A stretch of 64,000 bases of DNA from positions 1 to 64,000 of the forward strand of contig JADCGL010000011.1 in assembly GCA_020248985.1 (NCBI GenBank), in the 5' to 3' direction. Source of the stretch: Telmatospirillum sp. Lineage in GTDB: Bacteria; Pseudomonadota; Alphaproteobacteria; CACIAM-22H2. The notes beneath the pieces are model-generated. The model saw only the letters and a list, made by a program, of their open reading frames with translations. It had not been told where the DNA came from and did no database searches. Of the stretch, positions 34,451 through 42,369 are shown one piece after another; the first letter of the stretch is position 1; each line of letters starts with the position of its first letter. The translations under genes and the position numbers were made by a program.

Positions 34451-35398
34451 ATGTCCGGCGTCACGTTCCTTTGCACCGTCTACAACAAGGCCAAGTTCCT
34501 GCCCGACGTCGTCGCGGCGATCTGGCGCCAGGTGCCCGACCGGCCGCGCGAATTCCTGTTCGTGGACGACGGCAGCCGCGACGACTCGGTCGCGATCGTG
34601 CGCAAACTCACCAAAGACTGGCCCAATTGCCGCATTGTCGAGCAGCCCAATGGCGGGCCGTCTTCGTCGACGAACACCGGCATCAAGCTCGCGACTCAAA
34701 CGTACCTGAAGCTCGTCGGCTCGGACGACGTGCTCGCACCCTATGCGACGCAGCGCCTGATCGACGTGATGGAAGCGACGCGCACCGGCGGCGTGTTCGG
34801 GCGCATCGGCTTCTACAACGATCCGGCCGAAATCCGCTTCGACGAAGCGGCCGCCGCCGCCACGGTTCCGAACGTGCCCAAAGACGCGCTCGGCGAGGTC
34901 ATTCGCTACGGTGTGTCCGGCACGTCGCCGACTTTGTTTCGCACGTCGATCGTGCAGGCGGCAGGCGGCTGCGATCCCGAGGTCTTCGTCGAGGATTTTG
35001 CGCTGGCCTTGCGCGTGGCCAGGCTTGCCGCGATCGCGCGCTTCGAGCATATCGTCACCTGGGGCCCGGCCGCCGACGATACGCGCATCATGGTCGGCCA
35101 AGGCCACCAGGCGCACCACGATTTTGCGTTGGCTCTCGTGCATTTCCTGCGCGCACACCCCGAACTCGCCGAGACCTACGGTGAGCTTGCCTGCCGGCGT
35201 GCGGCGGGAAGGGCTTGGAAATATGCGCGGCGTGCGGCCGGTCTCGGCTGGACGAGCCGCTATCCGTGGCTCAATCTGCAAAGCTATCTGCGCCAACCCA
35301 GCGATGCGGCCGCGTTCATCGAAAAGACGATGCCGGTCTATCATCTGGGTGCCGGGCCTGCGGCGAAGCCCATCATCCGCGTGCCGAGGCGCGTATGA
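34451..35398 (+). CDS. Family 2 glycosyltransferase
   Basis: This 315-residue GT-A fold enzyme starts with VTFLCTVYNKAKFLPDVVAA and FLFVDDGSRDDSVAIVRKLT, the usual nucleotide-sugar site. LVGSDDVLAPYATQRL supplies the DxD-like metal motif (SDD). No transmembrane helix is evident, so it is likely cytosolic or peripheral. Donor and acceptor are unknown. It overlaps the next gene by ATGA and is first in a three-gene operon with an LTA-synthase-like enzyme and a phosphatidyltransferase fusion, pointing to a membrane glycolipid or head group. Confidence 0.88.
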   Translation: MSGVTFLCTVYNKAKFLPDVVAAIWRQVPDRPREFLFVDDGSRDDSVAIVRKLTKDWPNCRIVEQPNGGPSSSTNTGIKLATQTYLKLVGSDDVLAPYATQRLIDVMEATRTGGVFGRIGFYNDPAEIRFDEAAAAATVPNVPKDALGEVIRYGVSGTSPTLFRTSIVQAAGGCDPEVFVEDFALALRVARLAAIARFEHIVTWGPAADDTRIMVGQGHQAHHDFALALVHFLRAHPELAETYGELACRRAAGRAWKYARRAAGLGWTSRYPWLNLQSYLRQPSDAAAFIEKTMPVYHLGAGPAAKPIIRVPRRV

Positions 35399-37002
35399 AA
35401 CCGCGCAGCCGCCGGCCGCCCGGCATGCTCGCCACTTTCGTCGCGATCGTGTTTTTGAATCTGCTGTTCTCGTCGGGCGACTTCGTCGAGCAGCCGTTGC
35501 AGCTGCTGCCGTCTGCCGTCGCGATCGAACTGCTCGTCATTGTCGCGGTTTTTTTCCTCGTCGGCCGGCCGCAAGGCGTGCTGCTGTGGGGCCTCGCGGC
35601 GTTGAGCCTTGCGGCATTCGCATTGCGCGCCACATCCGTTGCGATCCCGTGGTTTTTCGGGCGCGATCTCAACGTGGCCGTCGATGCGCGATTCGTGCCG
35701 TTTTTCGTGCAGCTCTTGGCCAATTCGATGCCGGCCTTCGAGTTTGCCGCATTGACGTTGCTGGCGATCGGCGTGCTGTTGGCGGCCGTGGCGCTCGTGC
35801 GGTCCGCCTTGCGCACCGTTTCGCGCGCGGTCGAACTGCAAGGCTGGCCCGGCCTGGCGCTTGGGCTTGCCGCCCTCGTCGCAGGCTGGGCGCTGATGCC
35901 GAAGGCGCCGTCCACGCGCGACGAGCGCCCGGTCGTGTCGGTCGATGCGTCGCTGGCGGTCGTGCAGGCCTTCGATGCCGTGCTGCGCGCCGAAGGTTTG
36001 CGCGGCGCGCATCGCGCGCGCATCGATGCCGCCCAAGCTGCCCTGCCCGAGAAAAGCGATTTCGCGGCACTCGGGCAGCGCAATGTCGTGCTGATTTTCG
36101 TCGAATCCTACGGCGCCGTCACCGCGCGCGATCCCGCCTTCGCGGCGACGATGGATCCGCTGCGCACCCGTTTGCAAGGCGTGCTCGAGCAGGCGGGTTT
36201 TGCGAGTGCCACGGGCCTGCTGCGTTCGCCCATCACCGGCGGCGGCTCGTGGATGGGGCACGGCACGCTGCTCGCGGGCGTCAAGATCGCCGCCCAAGAC
36301 GCTTACGAGGTGATGCTCGTGTCGCGTCTGCGCACGCTTGCCCATCGCTTGGGCGATGCGGGCTACCGCACGCTCGCCTTGATGCCGCGCATGGACCAGC
36401 CGTGGCCCGAAGGGCGCCTGCTCGGGTTCGCGCAGATCCGCAACCAGCTCGATCTCGGCTATCGCGGTCCGCGCTTTGCGTGGGAGTCGCTGCCCGACCA
36501 ATGGGTGCTCGACTGGTTTGCGCGCAACGAAATTCAGCCGAGCCCGGTTTTCGCCAAGATCGTGCTCGCCTCCAGCCACACGCCGTTCGAGCGCGTACCC
36601 GCTTTCCTGGACGATTGGTCCGCCTTCGCGAAGGCCGATCCCTACAAGGATCTGCCGGTGCGCGAATTCCCGGTGCGCATGGGCCAAGTGTTCGACCAGG
36701 ATGCGGGCTATCTCGCCGCCGTCGCCTATTCGCTCGAATCGGTCATGCGCTTTGCAGCCGAACGCACCGACGACGAAACGCTGTTTATCGTGCTGGGCGA
36801 TCATCAGCCGCCGCTCACGACCGCGCGCCGCATCGGCGATTTTTCGGTGCCGATCCACGTATTCTCTCGCGCGCGCGAACTCATCGAACCGTTCGAGGCG
36901 CGCGGCTATTTGCCCGGCCTCGCCGTACCGCCAGGGACGGCCGCAAGCGGCATGGAGGATTTCTTGGCCGGTTTCCTCGCCGATTTCGGGACCGCGAAAT
37001 GA
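35395..37002 (+). CDS. LTA synthase-like, sulfatase-fold membrane enzyme
   Basis: This 535-residue protein has four or five N-terminal transmembrane segments (to about residue 170) and a periplasmic alkaline-phosphatase/sulfatase-type domain. NVVLIFVESYGAVTARDP opens the domain and holds the metal-binding glutamate. SPITGGGSWMGHGTLLAG is near the expected threonine nucleophile. LASSHTPFERV and IVLGDHQPPL provide later metal ligands. Proteins of this kind transfer phosphoglycerol or phosphoethanolamine from lipids to glycans. The substrate here is unknown. It is coupled to both neighbours by start-stop overlaps. Confidence 0.85.
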   Translation: MKPRSRRPPGMLATFVAIVFLNLLFSSGDFVEQPLQLLPSAVAIELLVIVAVFFLVGRPQGVLLWGLAALSLAAFALRATSVAIPWFFGRDLNVAVDARFVPFFVQLLANSMPAFEFAALTLLAIGVLLAAVALVRSALRTVSRAVELQGWPGLALGLAALVAGWALMPKAPSTRDERPVVSVDASLAVVQAFDAVLRAEGLRGAHRARIDAAQAALPEKSDFAALGQRNVVLIFVESYGAVTARDPAFAATMDPLRTRLQGVLEQAGFASATGLLRSPITGGGSWMGHGTLLAGVKIAAQDAYEVMLVSRLRTLAHRLGDAGYRTLALMPRMDQPWPEGRLLGFAQIRNQLDLGYRGPRFAWESLPDQWVLDWFARNEIQPSPVFAKIVLASSHTPFERVPAFLDDWSAFAKADPYKDLPVREFPVRMGQVFDQDAGYLAAVAYSLESVMRFAAERTDDETLFIVLGDHQPPLTTARRIGDFSVPIHVFSRARELIEPFEARGYLPGLAVPPGTAASGMEDFLAGFLADFGTAK

Positions 37003-38456
37003 CGCGCACCGCATCGTTGCGGCGTCTGGCGTGGATAACGGCCGCGATTCTTTTTGCGACCTTGCCGGTACTCGGGATCGTCGGCGTTGCCGCAAGCCTT
37101 TTGGCTCTCGGCATGCTGTGGGTGGGCGCGAGGCTGGGCCTTGCCGACCATCCGTATCCAAGCCTCGGCCCCGCCAATTGCATAACTTGGGCGCGTGGTG
37201 CGTTCGTGTGTTTTCTCGCAGGCCTTCTGTGCGTGCCGGAACTCGACGCCGATGCGCGCTGGATTCTGGTGGCCGCCGGAGCCGTCGTGCTCGCCCTCGA
37301 CGGTGTCGATGGCTGGATCGCGCGCCGCCGTGCCGAGACGTCCGACTTCGGGGCGCGTTTCGACATGGAAACTGACAGCGCTTTCATGCTGGCGCTGTGT
37401 CTGCTCGCCGCACGCTTCGGCGACGCAGGCCTATGGATCGTGTTGCTCGGCCTGCCGCGCTACGTGTTCGTCGCCGCATCGTGGCGCTATCCGTTTCTGG
37501 CCGAACCATTGCCGCACAGCGAACGGCGGCGCGTCGTGTGCGTGCTGCAGGGCATCACCGCGCTCGCCGCTTTGAGTCCCCTCGCCGCAGGCCCGCTGAT
37601 CGGGGCCGCGGGCCTCGCATTATTGCTGTGGTCCTTTGCGATCGACGTAAAGTTCTTGTGGACGAATGCGACGAGCCGTGCGCGGGTTGCGTTTGTCGGC
37701 CGCCTCTACGGGCTGCTGCGCTCGCTTGCGATCTACCATGCGATTCCGGGGCGTGCGGGCCAGCTCGACCGTTTCTACGCGCGTTTCGTGCGGCCCGGTT
37801 CGTTTGCAATCGATGTCGGTGCCCACGCGGGCAATCGCGTGGCGTCGTGGCGGCGTTTGGGTGCGCGCGTCGTTGCGGTCGAACCGCAGCCCGTTTTCGC
37901 CGATTTGCTGCGCCGGTTTTTCCTCGACGATCCGGCCGTGAAGATCGAAGAAAAACTGCTCGACGCGACACCGGGCACCGTCGCACTGCATTTGAGCGAC
38001 CGCTATCCCACGCTCGCCACGGCGAGCGGCGATTTCATGCGAGCTGCGTCGGCGGCCAAATCCTTTCGGGGTGTCGCGTGGGAGCGCGTGCTGCCTACGG
38101 AAGCCACGACGCTCGACGCGTTGATCGCGCGCGAGGGCATGCCCGACTTCGTCAAGATCGACGTCGAAGGGGCCGAGCCGCGCGTGCTGGCGGGCCTGAG
38201 CCACGCGGTGGCGGCCCTCTCGTTCGAATATGTGCCGGCGGCCAAGGATGCGGCCATCGCCTGCATCGACCGCCTCGAAGAATTGGGCGTCTATCGCTTC
38301 AACCGGTCGACCGGCGAAAGCCAGCGTCTTGTATTGCCGGATTTCGTTTCGGCGGCCGACATGCGCGGTTGGCTTGCATGTCTCAGTCCGGACGACAAAT
38401 CGGGCGACGTCTATGCCGAACGGCAAGCAGATCGCGGTGCCCGACCATCAGCGTGA
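36999..38456 (+). CDS. CDP-alcohol phosphatidyltransferase / FkbM methyltransferase fusion
   Basis: This 485-residue protein joins two enzymes. The first half is a membrane CDP-alcohol phosphatidyltransferase with the complete motif D-x2-DG-x2-AR-x8-G-x3-D-x3-D at residues 101-126 and about six hydrophobic helices to about 220. The second half (about 235-460) is a FkbM-type O-methyltransferase with the SAM site FAIDVGAHAGNR (269-280) and FVKIDVEGAEPRVL (385-397). The fusion would let one protein make a phospholipid-like bond and methylate the product. I know of no characterised case. The last 74 bases overlap the convergent methyltransferase gene. Confidence 0.88.
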   Translation: MTRTASLRRLAWITAAILFATLPVLGIVGVAASLLALGMLWVGARLGLADHPYPSLGPANCITWARGAFVCFLAGLLCVPELDADARWILVAAGAVVLALDGVDGWIARRRAETSDFGARFDMETDSAFMLALCLLAARFGDAGLWIVLLGLPRYVFVAASWRYPFLAEPLPHSERRRVVCVLQGITALAALSPLAAGPLIGAAGLALLLWSFAIDVKFLWTNATSRARVAFVGRLYGLLRSLAIYHAIPGRAGQLDRFYARFVRPGSFAIDVGAHAGNRVASWRRLGARVVAVEPQPVFADLLRRFFLDDPAVKIEEKLLDATPGTVALHLSDRYPTLATASGDFMRAASAAKSFRGVAWERVLPTEATTLDALIAREGMPDFVKIDVEGAEPRVLAGLSHAVAALSFEYVPAAKDAAIACIDRLEELGVYRFNRSTGESQRLVLPDFVSAADMRGWLACLSPDDKSGDVYAERQADRGARPSA

Positions 38457-39165
38457 GCTGGCCTGCCGCCAATTGGCGCGCACGCACGCGGCGCCAATCC
38501 GCAAGTTCAAGCGATGGATCGGCTTCGCAGGCGGCGGCCGCAATGCCGTCGAGCGTTGCCTCAAGCAGCTTGCCGCTCGGCAAATGCCAGTCGCTGGCCG
38601 CAAGTTCGACGCGATAGCCCGCGCAGGCCGCAAGCTGCGCAAGCATGAAAGGCGCAGTCCCGCCCAAGGCGGGGCCGAGGCCCTTGAAGCGGCGCTGATG
38701 ATGCGCGAACGCCGCGAACACGGCCGCATCGTCGCGATGCGGCGGGACAAGTTTGTGGCGCCCATCGACGGCAAGACCCATCAGCAAGGGCTTGCCGCGC
38801 GTGGCGCGCAGCAATCTGCACAGCCATGCGACGCCGACGAGATCGATCAAAGCACTTGAGACGTAGGCGTCGGCGTGCGGTAGTTTTCCGCCGAGGCTGC
38901 GGCGGATCTTCTGCGCGCGGCGGGGCGCTTGGGTAAGCAGCCGCGCATCTCCCTCGACCAGGCGCCAGCGCGCATGCGGCGGCAGCAGGGGGCCTAGCCA
39001 GCGCATCATCGCACCTGTGCCCGATCCCAAATCGGCGACGATCGCGCGGGGCTTAAGTGCCGCTGCAAATGCGCGTGCGAGCTTGCGGCTGCGCGCGGAC
39101 GCATCGGCGGGGGCGCGCAAAGCGAGCCAATCTGCGGAGAAATCGTTCACGGCAGGTTCGTCCAT
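38383..39165 (-). CDS. Class I SAM-dependent methyltransferase
   Basis: This 260-residue protein has the SAM-binding motif IVADLGSGTGAMMRWLGPLL at about residues 40-60, followed by an acidic WRLVEGDARLL strand. The remainder is Arg-rich and I cannot assign a substrate. It is the last gene of the minus-strand cluster and overlaps the upstream GT4 gene by 19 bases. Its 3' end lies inside the coding region of the convergent phosphatidyltransferase fusion by 74 bases. Its role is probably to methylate the product of the surrounding cluster. Confidence 0.78.
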   Translation of the reverse strand: MDEPAVNDFSADWLALRAPADASARSRKLARAFAAALKPRAIVADLGSGTGAMMRWLGPLLPPHARWRLVEGDARLLTQAPRRAQKIRRSLGGKLPHADAYVSSALIDLVGVAWLCRLLRATRGKPLLMGLAVDGRHKLVPPHRDDAAVFAAFAHHQRRFKGLGPALGGTAPFMLAQLAACAGYRVELAASDWHLPSGKLLEATLDGIAAAACEADPSLELADWRRVRARQLAAGQLTLMVGHRDLLAVRHRRRPICRPD

Positions 39166-40160
39166 AAACGTGCCGCCTGCTGCGGCCAATCGGGAAAACG
39201 CAACGCGGCGGCGTTTTGTGCAGAGCGCCGACGCTTCGGCCCCAGCATACGGCGCAAGGCGCGCATCAACAGATCGATCTGGCCCGGCCGTACGAGAATA
39301 CCCGCAGTTGCGGGCACCACGCTGGGAATGGCCCCCGCCGCAAGGCCGACGACGGGCAGGCGGTGCGCCAGCGCTTCGGCGAAGGCCATGCCGTAGCCTT
39401 CGTGGCGCGAGGCGAGTGCAAACAAATGCGCGGCGGCGTAGCGGCGGCTCAATGCTTCGGCACTGCAGGTGCCTGCAAGCCGCACGCGATGGCCCAGACG
39501 CAGGCGGGCGATCTCGCAGCGCACGCGCGCGGCACAAGCCGGGTCGCGTTCGGTCGCACCCACGAAATCGGCGCACCACGCAATGTCGCGCATGCGGGCC
39601 AACGCGCGCAACAGGGCGACATGGTCTTTGCGCGGCGTGAGCGTGGCGACGCACAGCACAGTCGGCTTGCCGCGGCGCGCAAGCGGTGTGCGTGCAGCCG
39701 CCGTACCCGGTTCGACGACTGTAATCTTGGCACCGTCGATACCCATCGCGACGAGATCGCGGCGCGTGGCGGCACTCGTAGCTACAATCGCGCCGATTTT
39801 CGCAAGCCGTGCGGTTTCGGCGCCAAGCCACGCACGGGCAACGGCCGGTTCCAGCCCTGTCTCGAGCCCGAGTGGGTGGTGGATGAGGGCAACCGTGCGC
39901 TTGGGCAAAACAAGCCCGTCGAACGCGGGCAAAGCGAGCCCGTCGATCAGCAGCGTTTCGCTGCCGCGCGTGCGCGCAACGCACGCCTTTGCTGCCTTGC
40001 GCGCGGCTTTGTCGCAAACCGGATAGGTACCGGCGAGTTCTTCGATTTCGACGCGATGGCCTTGCGTGCGCCACGCCGCAACCATCGCGGCCGCATAGCG
40101 ATAGCCGCCGGTCGCCTGGTCGAGTGGCCCGGGAACGACCAAACGCAGGCTTGCGCTCAA
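39147..40160 (-). CDS. Family 4 glycosyltransferase
   Basis: This 337-residue GT-B enzyme opens with SLRLVVPGPLDQATGGYRYA and has the donor-site blocks TVLCVATLTPRKDHVALLRA and LFALASRHEGYGMAFAEALA, whose glutamates contact the nucleotide sugar. No methionine lies near the natural start. I used the TTG at 40160, which overlaps the upstream stop as TTGA. It is part of the RibD-like/BchC-like/PTPS-like cluster, suggesting that a sugar is added to the product of those enzymes. Donor and acceptor are unknown. Confidence 0.85.
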   Translation of the reverse strand: MSASLRLVVPGPLDQATGGYRYAAAMVAAWRTQGHRVEIEELAGTYPVCDKAARKAAKACVARTRGSETLLIDGLALPAFDGLVLPKRTVALIHHPLGLETGLEPAVARAWLGAETARLAKIGAIVATSAATRRDLVAMGIDGAKITVVEPGTAAARTPLARRGKPTVLCVATLTPRKDHVALLRALARMRDIAWCADFVGATERDPACAARVRCEIARLRLGHRVRLAGTCSAEALSRRYAAAHLFALASRHEGYGMAFAEALAHRLPVVGLAAGAIPSVVPATAGILVRPGQIDLLMRALRRMLGPKRRRSAQNAAALRFPDWPQQAARLWTNLP

Positions 40161-40561
40161 GACAGGCTGGCCTCGTACGCCGCCCAGGCGACGGGCGATT
40201 CGCGCAAGGTGATCTTCATGCTCGGAAACGAACCGGCCGTCTGGGGGCCGAGTGCTTCGGCCGCGATCTTGCCCTTCAGCAATTCGAAGATGAGACCGGC
40301 GAGAAACTCGGTCGTCGTGTTGGTGTCTTTGAGCGGCTCGACCTCGTCGAGATTGCGGTAGTCGAGATCGTCGAGGGCTGCGCGCAGCAATTGGCGCATG
40401 AGTCCAATGTCGGCGATGAGGCCGTAGCGGTCGAGCGTGGCGCGCCGCAATTCCCACTCGACGACGAACGTCGCCCCATGCACGCGCTGGGCAGGCCCGA
40501 AAATCTCGCCCTTGAACGAATGCGCGATCATGATGTGGTCTTGGACGGTGAGGCTATACAT
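40157..40561 (-). CDS. PTPS/QueD-family protein with degenerate active site
   Basis: This 134-residue protein has the tunnel-fold pattern of 6-pyruvoyl-tetrahydropterin/6-carboxytetrahydropterin synthases. The zinc histidines align as H14 and H28, but the third (HxH) is replaced by alanine (A30). The catalytic cysteine position is A24, and the catalytic His of the LDHH motif is replaced (LDYRN). The NTTTEFLA segment and the C-terminal glutamate (ITLRES) are kept. Normal PTPS or QueD chemistry is therefore unlikely; it may bind or modify a different substrate. It overlaps both neighbours in the operon. Confidence 0.8.
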   Translation of the reverse strand: MYSLTVQDHIMIAHSFKGEIFGPAQRVHGATFVVEWELRRATLDRYGLIADIGLMRQLLRAALDDLDYRNLDEVEPLKDTNTTTEFLAGLIFELLKGKIAAEALGPQTAGSFPSMKITLRESPVAWAAYEASLS

Positions 40562-41516
40562 CGGAATCTCCGTAAGCGACGAGCGGCAGGGGCGAAACAC
40601 CTTGCGCGGCAAGCAGCCGCGCATAATTGGCAGGCAGATCGGCAAAACGCGTGGCGACTCCGAGATCGAGGCGGAAGGCAGGTGCTGCCAGCAGGCGCAG
40701 GGCGAGCGCCAAGCGTTGGCCGTAGCTATAGTGCGCGCGGCGCGCGGTCGCGACGCTGCCAACCTGGCTTGCCGCAAGTGTGAGGCGCTGCGAATGGAAG
40801 GCTCCGCCTAGGGGTACGCGCGGCGCGGCGTCGCCGTACCAGGACATTTCGACGATCGTCGCCTCGTAGCCAGCAAGTGCGATTGCCTGCGCTAGCCCCG
40901 CTTCGCTGCCCGAACAATGGAACACCAAATGGCAGCTGCCCGGGCAATCGTCTTTGAGGCCGCCGCGCGCACGTGCGATCGGCGACGGATCCATGCCGAA
41001 AAGTTCGATGCCGGGCGTGGGCGCCAACAATTTGGCAAGGCAGAGTCCGACTGCGCCGAGGCCGACGATCGCGACGCGGTCGCCGATGCGTGCGGGAAAG
41101 TCCCACAGCGCATTGAGCGCGGTTTCGAGATGGGCGGCAAGCGGCGTTGCCTCCGGCGGCAAGCCGACGGGAAGCGTCAATGCGGCTTCGGCAGGAACGT
41201 CGAATACATCTTGATGCGGATGCAGCACGAACACATTCTCGCCGATGCGCGAAGCGTCGCCCGCTTCGATCGTGCCGACCATGCAGTAGCCGTATTTGAC
41301 CGGGCCTGGCAGATCGCCGTCTTGGAAGGGCGCACGCATGCGCGCATATTCGGATTGCGGCACGCGGCCTTCGAACACGAGCCGCTCGGTGCCGCGACTG
41401 ATGCCGCTGAAGTGCGCGCGCACGCGCACATGGCCGGGGGCAAGATCGGGCAAGGCGGTGCGGCGAATTTCGCACCTGCCGGGGCCCGTCACCCACAAAG
41501 CGGCGGCGTCAGCCAT
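40554..41516 (-). CDS. BchC-like medium-chain dehydrogenase
   Basis: This 320-residue protein is a zinc-type alcohol dehydrogenase superfamily member that lacks the usual GHE zinc motif (it reads KYGYCMVG instead). FSGISRGTERLVFEGRVPQS and MRAPFQDGDLPGPVKYGYC resemble BchC, the bacteriochlorophyllide dehydrogenase. The Rossmann site is VAIVGLGAVGLCLAKLLAPT. No photosynthesis genes are present, so it probably oxidises a hydroxyl on another compound made by the cluster. The start is the ATG at 41516, overlapping the RibD-like stop. Confidence 0.85.
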   Translation of the reverse strand: MADAAALWVTGPGRCEIRRTALPDLAPGHVRVRAHFSGISRGTERLVFEGRVPQSEYARMRAPFQDGDLPGPVKYGYCMVGTIEAGDASRIGENVFVLHPHQDVFDVPAEAALTLPVGLPPEATPLAAHLETALNALWDFPARIGDRVAIVGLGAVGLCLAKLLAPTPGIELFGMDPSPIARARGGLKDDCPGSCHLVFHCSGSEAGLAQAIALAGYEATIVEMSWYGDAAPRVPLGGAFHSQRLTLAASQVGSVATARRAHYSYGQRLALALRLLAAPAFRLDLGVATRFADLPANYARLLAAQGVSPLPLVAYGDSDV

Positions 41517-42369
41517 CGCGCAGCTGGCACTCGAACAGCGTGTCCTCGCCAAGCGAAAAGCGCCGCGTGGGCGGACGCAACGCTTCGTCGAGCCGCTCGA
41601 TCGGCGGCAATTGGATCGACGGCCGGCCCGAGCCGATCACCAGCGGCGCGATCGCAAGCTGCAGGCGATCGACGCGGCCGGCGGCGATGAATTGCGAGAC
41701 CGTTTTGCCGCCGCCCTCGACCAACGCGAGCCGCACGCCGCGCGCGTGCAATGCCGCCAGCAGCGCATCAAGATCGATACCCTCGGCAACGCGCGGCAGA
41801 TCAAGCGTTTCGGCCATGCCGCAAACGGGCCCCGGCCCGCAGCGTGCGAGCAGCGTCGGCGGTGCGGCGGTCGCAAAGATGCGGCGGGCGGCCGGTGCGC
41901 GCCCGTCCGGATCGACAACGACGCGCAGCCGCGTTTGGCCCGCACAGCGGCGCACGGTAAGTTGTGGATCGTCGAGGGCGACCGTGCCGGCACCGACGAT
42001 TACGGAATCGGCCAAAGCGCGCATGCGGTGCAGATGCAGCAACGCCGCATCGCAATTCACATAATGCGAATGGCCCGACAAGGTGGCGATGCGCCCGTCG
42101 AGACTTTGGCCGAGCAATGCCACGACTTGGGTGCGCGCGGTGCGTGCGCGGGCGGCTAAGAGCGGCACGTAGATGTCGAAGATGCTTTGTGCGGCCGCCG
42201 TGACGGGGCCGGCACATTGCCAGCCGCCGTCTTCCGCCATCGCGAGGGGCCCTGCCCGGCCGACCGTGCCGTTGGCAGCCGCGTTCAGCGCCAGCACGAG
42301 CTGCCAGGCGGCATCGGCGTCGAGCGGGCGCGGGGCAGGGCGGATGGCGGGCGTTGCGACCATGGACAT
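41509..42369 (-). CDS. RibD C-terminal domain-like reductase
   Basis: This 286-residue protein contains a dihydrofolate-reductase-like RibD_C domain from about residue 85 on (VVALLGQSLDGRIATLSGHS, VGAGTVALDDPQLTVR, RLALVEGGGKTVSQFI). In riboflavin synthesis that domain reduces the ribose of a pyrimidine intermediate with NADPH. The deaminase domain of RibD is absent; instead there is an N-terminal helical segment of about 80 residues of unknown role. It starts 8 bases after DUF2842 and overlaps the dehydrogenase gene. A specialised reductase for a pterin- or pyrimidine-like compound is inferred. Confidence 0.85.
   Translation of the reverse strand: MSMVATPAIRPAPRPLDADAAWQLVLALNAAANGTVGRAGPLAMAEDGGWQCAGPVTAAAQSIFDIYVPLLAARARTARTQVVALLGQSLDGRIATLSGHSHYVNCDAALLHLHRMRALADSVIVGAGTVALDDPQLTVRRCAGQTRLRVVVDPDGRAPAARRIFATAAPPTLLARCGPGPVCGMAETLDLPRVAEGIDLDALLAALHARGVRLALVEGGGKTVSQFIAAGRVDRLQLAIAPLVIGSGRPSIQLPPIERLDEALRPPTRRFSLGEDTLFECQLRDG

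Follow-up and report, generated by a model that had tools for sequence, protein, structure and literature searches.

A conserved operon around a PTPS-IV protein of Telmatospirillum sp. that may convert a GTP cyclohydrolase II product into a glycosylated and methylated pyrimidine or pterin

The PTPS-IV proteins of Phillips and Zallot form a subfamily of COG0720 that is marked by the signature FGPAQ, and neighbourhoods in which their genes stand together with members of PF00925 and PF01872 had been recorded already in 2017 (PMC5445326). Here, we describe five genes (A to E, named in the order of their transcription) at positions 38383-42369 of the minus strand of a 64,000-nucleotide stretch of DNA from Telmatospirillum sp. 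(assembly GCA_020248985.1, contig JADCGL010000011.1, positions 1 to 64,000; hereafter the window). They encode a RibD_C-type reductase, a medium-chain dehydrogenase/reductase (MDR), a PTPS-IV protein, a family 4 glycosyltransferase (GT4) and a methyltransferase. Genes A-E probably make up the core of an operon that is conserved and sometimes plasmid-borne, and that turns the compound formed by GTP cyclohydrolase II into a pyrimidine or pterin bearing sugar and methyl groups. A reading of the window made previously from its letters alone (the sequence-only reading) knew of no assigned product, and nothing on the whole cluster or its product was found in the literature that was searched. However, the cluster itself is on record (PMC5445326) and the structure of SCO6650 from Streptomyces coelicolor has been solved (3d7j). 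Since PTPS-IV/SCO6650 clusters with RibD_C and GTP cyclohydrolase II have been noticed before, the locus is an orphan pathway and not a new kind of system.

The described systems differ from the window cluster in several respects. In the window, the genes for GTP cyclohydrolase II, a creatininase-family hydrolase and an LPG_synthase_TM protein that accompany SCO6650/PTPS-IV genes are missing, and the CDP-alcohol transferase is fused to an FkbM domain and encoded convergently. A glycosylated pterin would be comparable to the glycosides cyanopterin, biopterin glucoside and limipterin, which cyanobacteria and green sulfur bacteria make from pterins. However, the synthesis of these compounds begins with FolE and biopterin, whereas for the cluster GTP cyclohydrolase II and a RibD-type reductase appear to provide the first steps. 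The structure 3d7j is labelled as an uncharacterised PTPS homologue; its authors reportedly saw no zinc, no catalytic triad and no PTPS activity, yet a pocket suited to pterin.

All five open reading frames (ORFs) lie exactly where the sequence-only reading had placed five overlapping genes, and neighbours overlap by 4-19 nt (A/B and B/C by 8 nt each, C/D by 4 nt and D/E by 19 nt). The same reading had proposed a single linked pathway, to be checked by a survey of gene neighbourhoods. This survey was run, and the linkage held. Scanning 84,980 species genomes gave at least 584 confirmed stretches encoding a member of the PTPS-IV family, of which 80 were kept as named loci; as similarity to the query decided this selection, the rates given below apply to the closer members of the family. 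Genes in the named loci were called with a codon-based gene caller (the DNA is high in GC), and denominators below 80 give the loci that were testable for the gene in question. By their record titles, the named loci belong to Alpha-, Beta- and Gammaproteobacteria, Streptomyces, Pseudonocardia, Actinopolymorpha, and metagenome bins of Acidobacteria and Gemmatimonadota.

The order MDR-PTPS-GT4-methyltransferase is kept in most named loci, across these three classes of Proteobacteria, Actinomycetota, Acidobacteriota and Gemmatimonadota. C is immediately preceded by B in 75 of 78 loci and immediately followed by D in 73 of 77; in 63 of 71 loci E comes after D, and in 52 of 61 A is found near C. 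Moreover, 19 related genomes hold all or most of A-E together, with identities of 18-97% that mostly exceed 35%. Among 143 related genomes, B and C co-occur in an identical set of 27 (11 families, 15 of 127 genera), and E is present in 26 of these. In one genome (G057), B is located on a different contig from C and is still present. Furthermore, plasmids of Thiodictyon and Palleronia carry whole clusters, and on the Palleronia plasmid ribA-B-C-E-A are contiguous. The conserved order and the co-occurrence strongly support one linked pathway. In the Acetobacteraceae-like loci L101, L103, L106, L115, L117 and L133, the cluster is flanked upstream by flagellar-type genes and downstream by a pair of genes for a four-carbon-acid sugar kinase and an aldolase, families that were guessed from sequence.

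Protein C (40157-40561, minus strand, 134 aa) matches PF01242 (PTPS) with an E-value of 3e-21. Its nearest solved structure is that of SCO6650, which aligns over the full length (profile E-value 4.5e-60) and superimposes on the model of C with a TM score of 0.93, an rmsd of 1.2 and 50% identity. The FGPAQ signature is present in C and in 77 of the 80 named relatives. An alignment with a true PTPS (2g64) revealed that in C the second His of HGH is replaced by Ala, the Cys by Ala (A24) and the His of DH by Tyr. HGAT occurs in all 80 relatives and HGH in none of them. The two zinc-site His residues and the pterin-anchor Glu (E121) are likewise invariant in all 80, but C has neither the catalytic Cys nor the third His of the zinc site. 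C thus has neither the QueD/PTPS-I motif CxxxHGH with the triad DH, in place of which it reads A24..HGA and DY, nor the PTPS-III motif ExxHGH. C is a PTPS-IV (SCO6650-type) protein and is not QueD, and the loss of zinc and catalytic residues cautions against ascribing PTPS-type catalysis to it. Two Streptomyces plasmids bear stand-alone PTPS-IV genes that have no cluster partners (L164:12001-12426 and L167:12001-12399).

Protein A (41509-42369, minus strand, 286 aa) matches PF01872 (RibD_C) with an E-value of 8e-36 over residues 82-259 only, and the Pfam scan found no match to the N-terminal deaminase domain of bifunctional RibD. A is thus a reductase without a deaminase, as had been claimed, although the family was misnamed RidD in the heading of that claim and is correctly called RibD. 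The canonical RibD of the genome is encoded elsewhere, on contig C11. In the PDB, the family profile of A matches 6p8c (1.4e-42) and 2azn (5e-37) best and ranks them above bacterial RibD; both of these are deaminase-less 2,5-diamino-6-ribosylamino-pyrimidinone 5'-phosphate reductases. In archaea, the deaminase-less reductase acts on the 2,5-diamino compound. Like A, these archaeal-type enzymes consist of the reductase domain alone; however, A has about 80 additional N-terminal residues and with 99 bits it stays below the curated cut-off of TIGR01508 (186 bits). That the deaminase-less A ranks nearest to the archaeal-type reductases supports a route from GTP to a ribityl-diaminopyrimidine phosphate.

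Protein B (40554-41516, minus strand, 320 aa) had no match in the Pfam scan and is assigned to the MDR fold by profile and by a model with a pLDDT of 90. Where the cysteine and the GHE motif usually stand, it reads SGISRGTE and KYGYxxVG. In fifteen genuine BchC proteins of related genomes, one of them from the genome of the window organism, the corresponding motifs are SGISTGTE and PGYE(S/T)VG, with slight variation. Thus, B shares with BchC, the bacteriochlorophyllide dehydrogenase, the MDR family, the SGIS-GTE motif and the absence of GHE; BchC also lacks the His but keeps the Glu of PGYE, which B has lost. Against the bchC profile TIGR01202, B scores 32 bits at a cut-off of 291. Hence, the earlier description as a BchC-like dehydrogenase lacking the GHE zinc motif is correct in the fold and the missing motif, but the absence of the His does not set B apart from BchC and the score is far below the cut-off. 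The solved folds closest to the model are a mix of zinc-free quinone reductases and alcohol dehydrogenases; the model would fit either type of MDR, and the reaction cannot be read from the fold. A true BchC above the curated cut-off is encoded separately from B in the same genome (L145, G000:C43:6587-7528), and this protein suggests that the organism is a phototroph that makes bacteriochlorophyll. A lead towards light regulation by LitR (PMC9758184) showed no link to A-E.

The last two genes are a glycosyltransferase and a methyltransferase, as the sequence-only reading had also concluded. D (39147-40160, minus strand, 337 aa, TTG start) is a GT4 protein that matches PF00534 (Glycos_transf_1) with an E-value of 4e-20 and adjoins C in relatives. 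E (38383-39165, minus strand, 260 aa) carries the motif DLGSGTG of a class I S-adenosylmethionine (SAM)-dependent methyltransferase. On its own, E of the window matched nothing in Pfam or NCBIfam; an orthologue passes Methyltransf_25, and a search with the profile of the family retrieves SAM methyltransferases (7.5e-6). In five loci (L071, L094, L118, L119 and L123), D and E are fused in one ORF.

Genes that accompany the cluster elsewhere bear on the origin of its substrate. GTP cyclohydrolase II is encoded near C in 19 of the 80 named loci, a creatininase-family hydrolase in 13 and an LPG_synthase_TM protein in 17. At the position equivalent to Tyr105 of the E. coli enzyme, the three GTP cyclohydrolase II proteins from Streptomyces clusters have Met (KLRAMKLQ and the like), and all proteobacterial copies have Tyr. 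SCO6655, which also has Met at this switch residue, reportedly produces the formylated intermediate FAPy, according to work by Spoonamore et al. in 2006, which is cited in PMC3509567. A role of the creatininase-family hydrolase as a deformylase is a tentative suggestion. The proteobacterial cluster GTP cyclohydrolase II (L113:14350-15501) begins with some 165 residues in which no Pfam domain was recognised. Elsewhere in the genome of the window organism, the nearest counterparts of the cluster hydrolases are encoded by two creatininase-family genes (L135 and L136), with 29-52% identity.

The pathway that we propose combines these partners with the window genes; its reactions, the order of the steps and the product, including all chemistry after the reductase, are given as we infer them. 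In a first step, which is encoded in clusters elsewhere, GTP would be converted to 2,5-diamino-6-ribosylamino-4(3H)-pyrimidinone 5'-phosphate; alternatively, the formyl form of this compound would arise first and be processed by a hydrolase. A would reduce the ribosyl side chain to ribityl, as do the archaeal reductase RED and RibD_C. Subsequently, in either order, the zinc-less MDR B would perform an NAD(P)-dependent redox reaction on the ring or the side chain, and the T-fold of C could bind the pterin or pyrimidine head and shape or close the ring by means other than PTPS chemistry. Finally, D would glycosylate and then E methylate the molecule, and the neighbouring CDP-alcohol phosphotransferase may anchor the product to a lipid. 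The sequence-only reading had likewise suggested a pterin- or pyrimidine-derived molecule that is glycosylated and methylated. This suggestion fits the gene set, and a GTP-derived product fits even better because the GTP cyclohydrolase II and the creatininase-family hydrolase of other loci can now be added, but it keeps the rank of a prediction.

Several observations weigh against the proposed pathway. The window contains no gene for the first step, a cluster GTP cyclohydrolase II included, and in the corresponding domain of the RibBA protein of this genome (L003, G000:C11:21100-21579) the conserved zinc cysteines are gone. No other copy of a riboflavin-type GTP cyclohydrolase II was found in the genome. 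Because the cluster copy is absent and the RibBA domain is degenerate, the source of the substrate, and of the first riboflavin intermediate, is not evident in this organism. A second PF00925 gene (C6:15495) was considered for the missing step and rejected; it is accompanied by a 445-aa ORF and a gene for uracil phosphoribosyltransferase and appears to encode an enzyme of URC-type uracil catabolism. The creatininase-family protein scores far better as MftE-like than as ArfB, and this weakens the deformylation step. Moreover, A is not near C in about 15% of the well-covered loci, and the selection of the named loci by similarity counts on the same side. A bolder variant of the proposed pathway is a pterin route that is independent of GTP cyclohydrolase I. 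Here, A would supply the ribityl-diaminopyrimidine phosphate, B would oxidise the ribityl 2'-OH to a ketone, the 5-amino group would close on this ketone while C holds the substrate, and the resulting 6-substituted 7,8-dihydropterin would be decorated by D and E and possibly linked to a lipid. This variant is improbable, since it is uncertain whether an MDR without zinc would work as an alcohol dehydrogenase.

It is rather unlikely that the cluster makes a modified flavin or an F420-like deazaflavin, in which case the ribityl-pyrimidine formed by A would be built into a flavin-type ring and then glycosylated and methylated. RibD_C and GTP cyclohydrolase II are riboflavin-type enzymes, and a role of PTPS-IV in F420 synthesis has been stated as an unpublished result (Zallot et al. 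2016; PMC5041015). However, no lumazine or riboflavin synthase and no CofG, CofH or CofE was recognised among the conserved neighbours, where no search was aimed at F420 genes, and C has kept the pterin-type binding residues.

The convergent neighbours of the cluster bring in another possibility, namely that the five genes decorate a glycan or lipid of the cell envelope and that the pyrimidine/pterin enzymes were recruited for a different small substrate. On the plus strand, an operon at 34451-38456 runs towards the cluster and its 3' end overlaps E by 74 nt. It encodes a family 2 glycosyltransferase (F, 34451-35398; PF00535, 2.6e-22), a membrane protein resembling sulfatases and phosphotransferases (G, 35395-37002; PF00884, 2.9e-4, below the cut-off) and a fusion of a CDP-alcohol phosphatidyltransferase with an FkbM methyltransferase (H, 36999-38456; PF01066, 4e-14; PF05050, 1e-10). 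Homologues of F occur in 3 of the 80 named loci and its link to the cluster is weak outside the genus. G has homologues in 21 loci and is possibly accessory, and H is a probable accessory gene, with a homologue of its first domain in 41 loci and an intact active-site motif (DGWIARR..GARFDMETD). The two domains of H are encoded by separate genes in several relatives. The CDP-alcohol phosphotransferase, the sulfatase-like membrane protein and FkbM, together with LPG_synthase_TM proteins and the large membrane glycosyltransferases of family 2 that adjoin the cluster in some Gammaproteobacteria, speak for an envelope function. Yet GTP cyclohydrolase II and RibD_C jointly indicate GTP chemistry, and several loci, for instance L064 and L068, have no recognised envelope genes nearby. 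An envelope function of this kind is unlikely.

Very improbable is the view that C is the QueD or a folate enzyme of the organism and that the operon arose by rearrangement of the pathway to queuosine or folate. It could be argued that C is the sole PTPS-family protein found by searching the genome, that a full QueC gene is present (L162, G000:C4:89945-90613) and that NCBI labels the homologues as '6-carboxytetrahydropterin synthase'. However, the CxxxHGH and ExxHGH motifs are absent, with HGA in all 80 named loci, and four genomes (G055, G082, G117 and G118) carry C in addition to another PTPS-family protein. Moreover, QueE was not found in the genome of the window organism, which is 98.9% complete, with controls including E. 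coli, B. subtilis and Caulobacter being positive, and FolB is present (G000:C1). Thus, with QueC lacking QueE and FolB in place, neither queuosine nor folate accounts for C. The genome holds a QueC gene with neither QueD nor QueE detected. As the sequence-only reading had noted, no riboflavin, queuosine or folate genes are nearby; the closest riboflavin, QueC and FolB genes sit on other contigs. Finally, that A-E are chance neighbours, as might be suspected because MDR, GT4 and methyltransferases are large and common families, is excluded for practical purposes by the colinear orthologues in several phyla, the co-occurrence of B and C even on separate contigs and the D-E fusions.

The PTPS-IV family, with at least 584 stretches in 84,980 species genomes, extends over several phyla, and most of the examples examined share the partner genes. 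The name 6-carboxytetrahydropterin synthase and the queuosine term given to these proteins by NCBI are contradicted by the missing catalytic residues. With the complete set of genes, the function of SCO6650 and PTPS-IV, a question of long standing, becomes testable: the predicted product is a heterocycle derived from GTP that bears sugar and methyl groups, and the genes name the enzymes that could be assayed for its synthesis.

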